From the NCBI RefSeq assembly GCF_000314995.1, contig NZ_BAEO01000055.1, positions 62,001 through 126,000 of the forward strand: a stretch of 64,000 nt of DNA. The letters are read 5' to 3'. The position numbers were made by a program, and so were the translations under genes. How positions within the stretch are numbered: position 1 is the first letter of the stretch; each line of letters opens with the position of its first letter. Origin of the DNA: Paraglaciecola arctica BSs20135. Lineage in GTDB: Bacteria; Pseudomonadota; Gammaproteobacteria; Enterobacterales; Alteromonadaceae. Of the stretch, positions 1,907 through 60,239 are shown piece after piece. The notes below the pieces were generated by a model. The model saw only the letters and a program-made list of their open reading frames with translations, had not been told where the DNA came from and made no database searches.

Positions 1907-2001
1907 ATTCTGTCTCCGTTAAAATAAAGTAAATCTTGATACGTTTAAGTAGTAAATTAAAACATTAAAGAACAATTAACAAATGGGATATGTAAATTAA
2001 T

Positions 2002-2970
2002 ATGACTCAATTTTTCCCCTCGATCCAACCTTTTTCATCTGAAATGTTAGGAACATCTAATGGTCATTCGTTATATCTAGAACAAACCGGCAATCCTAAG
2101 GGCATACCAGTACTTTACATCCATGGTGGCCCAGGCGCAGGAATTGGAGAAGATTACCGTAGATTTTTTGACCCTGATAAATATTGGATAATAGGTTTTG
2201 ACCAAAGAGGATGTGGTAAATCTACACCATTTGGAGAGCTTGAAAATAACAACAGTCATGCTTTAGTCGACGATGTACTTTTGATACAGCAACACCTCGG
2301 GATTAACAAGTGGGTGTTATTTGGTGGTTCTTGGGGCTCAACTTTGGCTTTGCTGGTGGCTATTCGTCAACCCGAGAGTGTAATTGGCCTTATCTTACGT
2401 GGAATTTTTCTAGCCAGAGAGCAAGATTACACTTGGTATTTAGAAGCGTCAGGTGGCGCTGCACAACTTTTCCCAGAATACTATCAGGACTTCATAGCAC
2501 CAATTAAAAACAAACCTAAGAATGTCTCGATTGTTGATGCTTATTATCAAATATTCACTAGCAATAACGAAGTGCAAAAAATGGCGGCCATCAAGGCATG
2601 GTGTCTGTGGGAAGCTCGGATCAGTCGTTTACATTGTCAGCTTGACGAAGAGCTGTTGGTTGCAGATGTGCATCGAGCTATTAGTTTGGCTTTGTTGGAA
2701 TGTCATTACATAAAACATGCTTGTTTTATCCCTGAAAACCATATTTTGAATAACATTGGCAAGATACAACATCTACCCGCTACTCTTATTCACGGTCGCT
2801 ATGACAGTGTATGTAAAATTGAAGCGGCATATTCGTTAAGTCGACAGTGGCAAAATAGTCGACTCAATATCGTGCCTGAATCTGGGCATAGTGCAGTTGA
2901 AAAAATGATTACTCAGGCGTTATGTGCGGCCAGCCAGTCTATGGCTAACTTTTGGTTGGGACAACAATGA
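2002..2970 (+). CDS. pip: Prolyl aminopeptidase (alpha/beta hydrolase, S33)
   Basis: 322-residue alpha/beta hydrolase that removes N-terminal proline from peptides in the cytoplasm. The sequence shows the oxyanion motif HGGPGAG near residue 41, the DQRGCGKS segment near 67, the nucleophile elbow GGSWGS (Ser110), the acid in HGRYD and the catalytic His in ESGHS near the C-terminus. The length matches the monomeric family. Its TGA overlaps the ATG of dtd (ATGA), so the two are translationally coupled. Confidence 0.92.
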
Positions 2971-3404
2971 TTGCGCTAATCCAAAGAGTAAAGCAGGCTA
3001 AAGTTGAAGTCGCAGGGCAGACCATAAGCGAGATTGGTCAAGGAATTTTGGTGTTGTTAGGGGTAGAAAAAAACGATGATAAAGTTAAGACACAAAAACT
3101 CTGTCAGAAAGTCATGAACTACCGTATTTTTTCTGATCAACAAGGAAAAATGAATCTAAATGTGCAACAAGTGGCAGGTGAATTGTTAGTGGTTTCACAG
3201 TTTACCTTGGTCGCGGATACGCAAAGTGGTAATCGCCCGAGTTTTTCAAGTGCTGCGCCTGCCCAGTTAGGCGAAGAGTTATACCAATATTTTGTCGAAT
3301 GTTGTCAAACAAGTGGAGTGCCTTGTCAAACAGGAGAGTTTGCTGCAGATATGCAGGTTTCATTGCTGAATGACGGTCCTGTTACTTTTCAACTACAAGT
3401 ATAA
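2967..3404 (+). CDS. dtd: D-aminoacyl-tRNA deacylase
   Basis: 145 residues from ATG 2967, beginning [15 protein letters not shown], the standard N-terminus of DTD. The active-site motifs SQFTL (near residue 78) and the C-terminal NDGPVTF are both present. DTD hydrolyses D-aminoacyl-tRNA and Gly-tRNA(Ala) as a homodimer. An upstream TTG at 2952 would add five residues inside pip and is not favoured, because ATG 2967 overlaps the pip stop in the usual ATGA arrangement. Confidence 0.95.
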
Positions 3405-57750: not shown

Positions 57751-58476
57751 ATGGGAAGAAAGTTCGAAGTACGTAAAATCTCCATGGCTAAAACTGCTGG
57801 AGCCAAAACCAAAGTGTATTCTAAATATGGCAAAGAGATTTATGTTGTTGCCAAAAATGGTGGTACAGATCCTCAGGCAAACTTGGCTCTGCGCAGACTG
57901 ATCGAAAAAGCTAAAAAAGATCAAGTACCGAGTCATGTCATTGATAAAGCTATTGATAAAGCAGCAGGCGGTGCAGGTGAAGATTATGTACCTGCTCGTT
58001 ATGAAGGATTTGGCCCAGGTGGCTGTATGGTGATAGTTGACTGTCTAACAGACAACAACAATCGCACTATTACTGATGTACGTAATTGTTTTACAAAAAC
58101 CGGTGCTAAGTTGGGTGTTGAAGGTACTGTCGGCCATATGTTTGATCACCAAGCGGTATTTGCTTTTAAAGGTGATGATGAAGACGCTGTTCTAGAAACG
58201 TTAATGGAAGCTGACGTTGATGTCACAGAAGTAGAATGTGAAGAAGGAGTGGTAACGGTTTATGCTCCTCACACCGAATTTAACAATACCCGTACTGCTT
58301 TAGTCGATGACAGCCCAGATATTGATTTTGAAGCAGAAGAAATTACTTTTATCCCACAAACAGAGTCAGTTGTTAGCGGTGATGATGTAGCGACCTTTGA
58401 CAAATTTATGGATATGTTAGAAGACTGCGACGATGTGCAACACGTTTATCACAATGCGGTGGTTGAACGCGAATAA
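57751..58476 (+). CDS. YebC/PmpR family protein, YeeN type
   Basis: 241 residues. It starts [17 protein letters not shown] rather than the MAGHSKWANI of YebC, and shares [16 protein letters not shown] and [15 protein letters not shown] with E. coli YeeN. YebC-family proteins act as translation factors that relieve stalling on proline runs or as transcriptional regulators; which applies here is unknown. AGAAGAGAA precedes the ATG, and a terminator follows. Confidence 0.9.
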
Positions 58477-58526: not shown

Positions 58527-58634
58527 GTTTGTGCTTTATGTCAGCATAGAGCTGATCAACGGTCATACGTCTAGGTTATGGTGTATGACAAGTATACTGA
58601 GAAAGCAGATGGTGACATCCTCCCGTCTATTATC

Positions 58635-58660
58635 CGTCATTCCCGCGAAGGCGGGAACCT
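58635..58660 (+). repeat. 26-bp palindromic repeat, left copy
   Basis: Begins CGTCATTCCCGC, has loop GAAG and then GCGGGAA, so it can form a 7-bp hairpin. The exact reverse complement is at 59072-59097, on the other side of the GIY-YIG gene. Confidence 0.9.
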
Positions 58661-58691
58661 CCAAACCAACTGGCTAATCTAAAAGAATCGT

Positions 58692-58741
58692 CCTTTTCAA
58701 CATGACAATTTCTGCATATATTTATTAAACGATTGAAAAGG
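58692..58741 (+). promoter_or_regulatory. Possible leader stem masking the GIY-YIG ribosome binding site
   Basis: CCTTTTCAA at 58692-58700 is complementary to TTGAAAAGG at 58733-58741, which contains most of the Shine-Dalgarno AAAAGGAA of the GIY-YIG gene. Pairing across a 32-nt loop would hide the site if the transcript starts upstream. Confidence 0.35.
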
Positions 58742-58750
58742 AATTCAACA

Positions 58751-59041
58751 ATGAAACGGCCCTGCTTATACATTCTCACTAATGATAACAACAGTACGCT
58801 ATACATCGGGGTAACAAGTAATTTAGTGCAGCGCATTTATCAACATAAAAACAAACAAGTGAAGGGCTTTAGCTCAAAATACAATTTGAATAAACTAGTC
58901 TATTTTGAGCAACTTGAAGATATGGATAGCGCAATACTTCGAGAGAAAAGGCTCAAGAAATGGAACAGAGAATGGAAAAATCGGCTCATCAATGAGTTAA
59001 ATCCTAGCTGGAAAGACTTATATTTTGACTTGGTTGGGTGA
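58751..59041 (+). CDS. GIY-YIG family endonuclease-like protein
   Basis: 96 residues from ATG 58751 (AAAAGGAA ahead; the TTG at 58733 is rejected). A single GIY-YIG domain: Tyr7-Ile8 (CLYILTN), Tyr18-Ile19-Gly20 (LYIGVTSN), Arg28, Glu65 (LREKRLKKW) and a late Asn. It resembles the UPF0213-type small nucleases with no other domain. These residues would form the one-metal cleavage site. It lies between perfect inverted 26-bp palindromes, suggesting that it acts on or moves with them. Confidence 0.88.
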   Translation: MKRPCLYILTNDNNSTLYIGVTSNLVQRIYQHKNKQVKGFSSKYNLNKLVYFEQLEDMDSAILREKRLKKWNREWKNRLINELNPSWKDLYFDLVG

Positions 59042-59071
59042 GAATAGATTGAGTCTACTGGGGCTATTAGT

Positions 59072-59097
59072 AGGTTCCCGCCTTCGCGGGAATGACG
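59072..59097 (-). repeat. 26-bp palindromic repeat, right copy
   Basis: Exact reverse complement of 58635-58660, ending GCGGGAATGACG on the plus strand. It starts 30 bp after the GIY-YIG stop. Confidence 0.9.
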
Positions 59098-59225
59098 TGT
59101 AATATCTTGAAAATCATCACCGTCAGCTTACTACTATTTGTGATCGTTAAGTGATTTGTTCACCATCGGCAGGTAATGGCACATACGAGACAAGAGCCTA
59201 ATATTTCAAAGTTAAAGATTTACTT

Positions 59226-60239
59226 TTATTGTTCCAAAGCGACAATCTGGTCGAGCAAACCAATCATTAATTTTGTACCTGTACCAGAAGCAATGCCATC
59301 AAATACATTCTCAACATTTTTGCCGTGTTGTGCGCCGGCTAAATCACTAATTGAACGAATGATTATCCAGTCTACGTCATTAACAAAACATACTTGTCCA
59401 ACAGCCGCAGATTCCATTTCTGTTACTTGAGCACTGTATACCCGTTGTAACCATTTACGATACTCAGCGTTATCTAAAAATACCGAACCTGTAACTCCGT
59501 TACCGCCCACTTTGATGTTAATGGGTTTGCCGGAAGGCATATTGATTGGGCTCACAGCCTTAACGGCTTTTTTTGCCAGCTCAATTAGTTCAGGAGTGGC
59601 GCTAAAATAGGGCATTTGTTGAGGTTTATCCCAACCCTGTTTAACAACTGTCATTTCTTCAGGGTGAATATAACCAAAGTTCTCATAAGCCGGTGAATGG
59701 GGATCTTGTTTGCGTCTTTCTTGGTATTGCTTTTGTGCACTTTCATAAAAATCAGGTAAAACAAAACTACCCGCTTTTTTTGGATCAGGGTTTACATAAA
59801 TTGATTCATCATGAAAATACCAACGTTCTGGTACAGCAATGTCTCCTGGTTGGAAGTTAGGATTGACGGCACCAGCAATACCCATCATCACTACTCGGTC
59901 TATAGGGAAATAATCCAGCGCCATCTGCATCGTCATAGCGGCATTAGGCACACTTATGCCCGTAGTAAATATTACAACTGGCTCACCTTTGTATGTCCCT
60001 AATTGGTATTTAACTCCCTTTATGGTCAGCGTTTGATTGATCTGAGCATCAGGGAGTTGCGCGAATGCTTGGTCAATAGCTTTAATTTCTGGAGCATAGG
60101 CGGCAACAATCGCAGTCCATTTATTTTTGTCTGTAAATTCTTTTGGCCCATAAGCGCTAATATCTTGTGCATAAGAATTATGGGCGCTTAGCATGATGCT
60201 AAAAATTAAGAAATAATGGACCCGGAATTTTTTAAACAT
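59226..60239 (-). CDS. Exported nucleoside phosphorylase/nucleosidase family protein
   Basis: 337 residues with a signal peptide ending NSYAQ (residue 25). A PNP/UDP-type fold follows with MGIAGAVNPNFQPGD, the purine-site EMESAAVGQVC and catalytic Asp in RSISDLAG, as in MTA/SAH nucleosidases. An insert of about 60 residues (YVNPDPKKAGSF onward) separates it from cytoplasmic MtnN. It probably cleaves nucleosides in the periplasm to free bases for uptake; the exact substrate is unknown. Confidence 0.82.
   Translation of the reverse strand: MFKKFRVHYFLIFSIMLSAHNSYAQDISAYGPKEFTDKNKWTAIVAAYAPEIKAIDQAFAQLPDAQINQTLTIKGVKYQLGTYKGEPVVIFTTGISVPNAAMTMQMALDYFPIDRVVMMGIAGAVNPNFQPGDIAVPERWYFHDESIYVNPDPKKAGSFVLPDFYESAQKQYQERRKQDPHSPAYENFGYIHPEEMTVVKQGWDKPQQMPYFSATPELIELAKKAVKAVSPINMPSGKPINIKVGGNGVTGSVFLDNAEYRKWLQRVYSAQVTEMESAAVGQVCFVNDVDWIIIRSISDLAGAQHGKNVENVFDGIASGTGTKLMIGLLDQIVALEQ

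Follow-up and report, generated by a model that had tools for sequence, protein, structure and literature searches.

Introduction

The repeats known as CGTC-tagged REPs were described in 2013 as sequences that 'apparently lack a dedicated transposase' (PMC3733652). In the accessible part of that study they are recorded from five phyla, CGTC-1 of Neisseriae being the repeat dRS3, and no RAYT gene is reported to have CGTC REPs at its flanks. CGTC-1 is defined there by a CGTC tag beside a stem with a 4-nt loop, and 'almost all' or 'most' of its members have complementary A-T in stem positions 1 and 2 and a CCA tail.

Two hairpins that look, in their sequence, like CGTC-tagged REPs frame a small GIY-YIG nuclease gene in the stretch of Paraglaciecola arctica DNA analysed here (the window, 64,000 nt). 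Measured against CGTC-1, as far as the accessible text of PMC3733652 describes it, they have the same CGTC tag, 4-nt loop and arrangement as dimers in opposite orientation, and are likewise dispersed in the genome (22 places). Unlike CGTC-1, their first stem pair is A-C, their tail is CCTCC and not CCA, and an enzyme gene lies between them, whereas no dedicated transposase is credited to CGTC-1 in that text. The motif ATCCAG is present in the REPs of many relatives.

The locus shares with REPtrons an enzyme gene framed by inverted REPs and dispersed gene-less REP pairs, but the enzyme is a GIY-YIG protein and not a Y1 HUH enzyme (RAYT), and the tag is CGTC instead of GTAG. GIY-YIG homing endonucleases carry the same kind of domain, and the cut-and-repair spread that we infer below would be a further likeness; however, the protein encoded here is a lone domain of 96 aa, without intron or separate DNA-binding domain, and, as to the interruption of its own target that marks a homing endonuclease gene, REPs remain intact at both ends of the present element, and forms with a single REP also exist. 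A study of 2025 in Nature Communications is said to describe Ssn of Neisseria meningitidis, a GIY-YIG site-specific ssDNA nuclease whose target is repeated and which has many homologues. By that description Ssn resembles the enzyme of the window, a small single-domain GIY-YIG protein with a putative cognate repeat, and the nuclease half of the system probably belongs to the Ssn family. If the description holds, this half is already known, and the present analysis contributes its connection with CGTC REPs together with evidence for an exchangeable cassette. Among the top-ranked matches of a literature search, for which bioRxiv and most subscription papers were outside the scope, no paper linked GIY-YIG to REPs and none dealt with dRS3 and GIY-YIG together. 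A co-mention of 'GIY-YIG' and 'RAYT' was discarded as a link, 'RAYT' being an author's name in the accessible text.

The reading favoured here, to which we give a probability of about one half, is that of a selfish REP-gene-REP cassette set in outer arms, which would encode a REP-specific nuclease and spread by cut and repair.

Organisation of the locus

The GIY-YIG gene is situated between a gene that we take to be yebC (57751-58476) and a minus-strand gene, presumably nucleoside-phosphorylase-like (59226-60239). The features of the locus, in window coordinates, are as follows.

58549..58634, plus strand: outer left arm (LE), with an approximate left limit, drawn from similarity only; 0.50-0.78 against the left arms of 17 own-genome copies
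58635..58662, plus strand: left CGTC-tagged REP hairpin, from inverted-pair comparison, pattern search and ssDNA folding
58688..58744, plus strand: 5' leader with predicted hairpin CCTTTTCAA / TTGAAAAGG, limits approximate, pairing with the likely ribosome-binding site
58751..59041, plus strand: GIY-YIG nuclease gene, 96 aa, from PF01541 match, alignment, AlphaFold2 model and fold comparison
59070..59097, minus strand: right CGTC-tagged REP hairpin, inverted, from inverted-pair comparison, pattern search and ssDNA folding
59098..59183, plus strand: outer right arm (RE), ending in ...TGGCACA, resembling its counterparts in other copies, with a limit drawn from similarity only

A sequence-only reading of this DNA had proposed that the gene is bracketed by perfect inverted palindromes of 26 bp. 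The two copies are indeed identical and inverted over that length (58635-58660 is the reverse complement of 59072-59097), and the inverted similarity reaches 38 nt at 89%, but each copy taken alone is an imperfect hairpin. It is made up of the CGTC tag and the stem TTCCCGC/GCGGGAA with loop GAAG, and as ssDNA each REP forms a stem of 7 bp closed by a 4-nt loop, equally good folds arising in 0/200 and 3/200 shuffles. The 23-nt REP pattern (up to 3 mismatches) occurs twice in the 64-kb window and not once in 100 shuffles. The right hairpin lies about 30 nt past the stop codon, and no T-run was seen 3' of it in the window. The leader hairpin is weak as DNA (z -1.59; equally stable shuffles 17/200); over the likely ribosome-binding site it is also found in the close copies L018, L060 and L061, and was not seen in L062-L067. 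Three matches to Rfam families were rejected, every one being below the gathering score. Phage records gave no match, and records of a plasmid collection gave 32, all below 60% identity and several in records of chromosome size.

The ORF of 96 aa matches PF01541 (E 2.4e-17), which bears out the earlier identification of a small GIY-YIG gene between the repeats. Its AlphaFold2 model has a mean pLDDT of 94.2, and the best solved folds for the model are UPF0213 BH0048, Slx1 and the UvrC N-domain, with every Foldseek E-value at 0.001 or above. Alignment of 22 GIY-YIG sequences, the window protein included, gives 13 invariant columns, among them two tyrosines, an arginine and an asparagine that we take to be the active-site residues of the superfamily. 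Among the best 80 of at least 574 relatives, the nearest named locus is L087 from Paraglaciecola sp. MB-3u-78 (93% identity over residues 1-75). In this locus (2501-2773) the gene core is 95% identical, the 3' part is deleted and the reading frame terminates inside the right REP; it has no yebC beside it in the 5.2 kb that were read.

Copies in the P. arctica genome

The unit of the window is not unique. In the P. arctica assembly (a draft of 72 contigs) the REP stem pattern is dispersed over 22 places, few for a REP family, and the reversed control over none. The GIY-YIG protein has three copies, all framed by REPs that lie 435-436 bp apart, and 15 gene-less two-REP versions are present. Fifteen of the 16 stem places outside the gene copies are in gene-less two-REP elements, with cores of 121-124 bp, and three more such elements were detected through their arms. 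Similarity among the copies continues outside the REPs, and the whole dispersed element in this genome includes outer arms of about 86 bp each. A right-arm query returned 20 matches at E ≤1.3e-4, two of them fragments of one copy, and the window's own right arm (about 70% identical) is absent from these 20; a left-arm query returned 9 at E ≤1. No shared cargo gene other than GIY-YIG was seen by eye in the aligned copies.

Cores and arms have differing histories, with switch points at the REPs, in a comparison of 18 own-genome copies and a copy from genome G131 (the rows C66 and C23 were not counted). The three gene copies have cores with identities of 0.93-0.95, but the window's arms reach 0.69-0.71 (left) and 0.70-0.72 (right) against those of the other two. 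Gene-less copies C8 and C48 have identical cores and arms at 0.66 and 0.74, and C46a and C11a have a right arm in common at 0.95 and unrelated cores. As cores are common to copies with differing outer arms, the REP-to-REP segment appears to behave as an exchangeable cassette. The 463-bp unit, which the sequence-only reading offered as a possible mobile cassette, is not the whole dispersed element. Two gene copies on C46 resemble each other both in core and in arms (0.90, 0.88), and in the near-copies C8 and C61 core and left arm are fully common and the right arm is at 0.97; such copies, alike throughout, indicate that the arms travel too, which counts against the favoured reading. Two collapsed forms have only one REP, or part of one, between their arms (L040, at a contig end, and L038).

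In the gene-less copies C8, C48, C3 and others the right REP stem is changed yet complementary (TTCCCTC/GAGGGAA), and the CGTC tag is retained.

The site of the window in related genomes

The presumed yebC gene is present in 21 of 22 genomes searched, P. arctica included, and its site was read in 19 other loci (L173-L191), one more match being without a locus. The element is absent from nearly all of them, 18 of the 19 giving no element match at E 1e-3; the exception (L176) holds a gene-less element with a short core. The window's next gene also matches in 11 of the 19, and in L178 the matches to both neighbour genes are separated by 82 bp, compared with 749 bp in the window. The G131 copy matches the window in RE (79%) and in half of LE (86%), and its core has no match, so that at a single site one species has the gene core and another species a short one. 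No target-site duplications were found by eye. The relatives have diverged too far to offer an exact empty site.

Repeats and gene within the family

Genome-level tests were made on the same 118 genomes of the family with a gene match threshold of 1e-10, at which 24 have the GIY-YIG gene. The CGTC-1 REP occurs in 12 genomes (gene in 7), the TTGCGGC REP in 7 (gene in 4), and the TCGTGGC REP in two, G053 with 10 copies and G060 with 3, the gene match of the latter being a fragment with a stop. With any of the three REP types the gene is found in 9/16 genomes, compared with 15/102 others (Fisher p 6.5e-4). Repeats scattered without any association to GIY-YIG genes, an outcome that would have spoken against the sequence-only reading, are thus not what was found, but 7 of the 16 REP genomes, such as G051 (28 copies) and G037 (8), lack a gene match at 1e-10, which counts against the favoured reading. 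Of the 28 CGTC-1 REPs of G051, 25 have the same orientation, and many lie about 117 bp apart, on several contigs.

G053 has two full copies of the element, 92.4% identical over 528 bp and set in unlike flanks; the ends of one copy form a perfect inverted repeat of 48 bp. In L208 and L211 a stretch over the 5' part of the gene is missing, L210 is a lone REP, and L209 is interrupted by a contig end. At the two places where the full copies stand, the gene is absent in 9/9 and 12/12 other loci of the genus; right-hand synteny is visible in only two of these loci, which makes them weak empty sites. No target-site duplication was seen in the G053 copies, a further point against the favoured reading.

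Framing of the gene across bacteria

A wider scan, with one genome per species, gave at least 574 relatives, and the titles of the best 80, which were kept, come from several phyla and include many metagenome bins. Of 110 loci four were too short, and the remaining 106, own three copies included, were compared with 323 mechanical ORFs of at least 100 aa. One or more GTC-tagged hairpins lie within 200 bp at 92/106 gene loci and 38/323 controls (Fisher 6e-47), tagged hairpins stand on both sides at 57/106 and 3/323 (2e-37), and the inverted-repeat score is 15 or more at 56/106 and 3/323 (1e-36); these counts ignore relatedness, and several loci are copies from the same genome (L016-L018, L063/L083, L064/L084, L067/L085). 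The association of gene and hairpins is thus general, not universal. No tagged hairpin was seen near the gene at 14/106 loci, and the score is below 15 at 50/106, both of which count against the cassette reading; relatives within the family reach a score of 15 or more in 12/27 and both-sided tagged hairpins in 13/27. The earlier suggestion that a GIY-YIG gene occupies the position of the Y1 gene in a REPtron is borne out and recurs among relatives. Orthologues usually without flanking repeats, the outcome that would have spoken against it, were not what was found (hairpins are near the gene at 92/106 loci), but 49/106 are not framed on both sides.

When no tag was assumed, GTC was found 0-2 nt from 163 of 195 flank hairpins, compared with a mean per triplet of 17.3 (L016 and L017 dropped as near-copies). 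Matching tagged hairpins occur on both sides of 43 loci, or 39 after removal of near-copies, and their stems vary among lineages: TTCCCGC in 20/39, and in others, for example, TCGTGGC, TTGCGGC, TCCTTGC or TCCCACC. Stem distance is correlated with protein distance (Mantel r 0.42, p 2e-4, n=39), also outside the family (r 0.33, p 0.02, n=29); within the family no correlation was found (r -0.14, p 0.70, n=10), which counts against the favoured reading. The stem label is clustered on the tree, with 8 changes against a shuffled mean of 13.3 (2/500 as low), on a tree with good support for only 5/36 branches and with one very long row. Judged by these comparisons, the stems appear to follow the enzyme in part.

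Discussion

In the favoured reading the GIY-YIG protein is most likely the site-specific endonuclease dedicated to its own CGTC-tagged REP, which we infer it to recognise, and probably acts on the REP hairpin in ssDNA, as is reported for Ssn. Repair of a cut at a gene-less REP site would take a gene-bearing copy as template for the REP-to-REP segment, which would amount to a homing-like motor, and after partial events gene-less REP pairs or single REPs could remain. We know of no joining activity for a lone GIY-YIG domain, which counts against such spread. The framed block seems to change its genomic place and recurs with differing hairpins, and the enzyme may therefore be the missing partner of these REPs. 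A bolder proposal, possible but in our view rather doubtful, is that of autonomous transposable elements in which the GIY-YIG nuclease is the only enzyme and the missing mobiliser of CGTC REPs, working through cleavage of the hairpin and repair by the host; the REPs and REP pairs of many phyla would then be non-autonomous derivatives.

The mosaic could also be produced by RecA recombination without any enzyme of the element, and host recombination is the strongest rival because the REPs are the best-conserved stretches that the copies share; the exchange points fall on such stretches, which is what homologous recombination would produce. In its fuller form this explanation holds that the enzyme is a REP-specific ssDNA nuclease that restricts or directs the uptake and recombination of DNA, as is reported of Ssn in Neisseria, and that the cassette is moved by host recombination and transformation, with the nuclease not acting as its motor. 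The N. gonorrhoeae relative (L119), a candidate Ssn with 57% identity to the window protein among the best 80 of at least 574 relatives, fits this picture, lying among 11 dRS3-like palindromes. Taken alone, however, it leaves the frequent position of the gene between its own repeats without explanation and does not account for the IS-like copies and deletion derivatives in G053, and we consider it unlikely. As to the arrangement in L119, the gene lies inside the array of palindromes (1944-3115), which fit ATTCCC-N8-GGGAAT.

Movement by a transposase in trans (Y1/RAYT or other), with the GIY-YIG gene as cargo, appears improbable. Five Y1 matches exist in the P. arctica genome, and the lack of a visible target duplication is as with Y1 elements, but in the 1.5 kb that were read, none of the five loci shows the REP stem or GTCATTCC, so that a RAYT as mobiliser is not supported. 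Nor do the aligned copies share, by eye, any other cargo gene, and the accessible text of PMC3733652 describes no RAYT gene with CGTC REPs on its flanks.

That the hairpins serve a static small gene as terminators or as stabilisers of its mRNA, an idea already disfavoured, is very improbable: the right hairpin is suitably placed about 30 nt past the stop codon, but no T-run follows it, a hairpin stands upstream of the gene as well, both-sided tagged hairpins occur at only 3/323 control ORFs, and P. arctica, G053, G087 and G115 each have several gene copies.

A recurrent nuclease partner with varying stems, together with exchangeable cassettes, makes the origin and spread of CGTC REPs directly testable, and the natural pairs of enzyme and hairpin would provide a series for sequence-specific cutting of ssDNA. 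Some own-genome copies (L041, L042, L045) have a further repeat (TTTTCACCACAGAGG... / ...CTCTGTGCTCTCTGTGTCC) beyond one arm or beyond both, and the elements may thus be nested in a larger composite.
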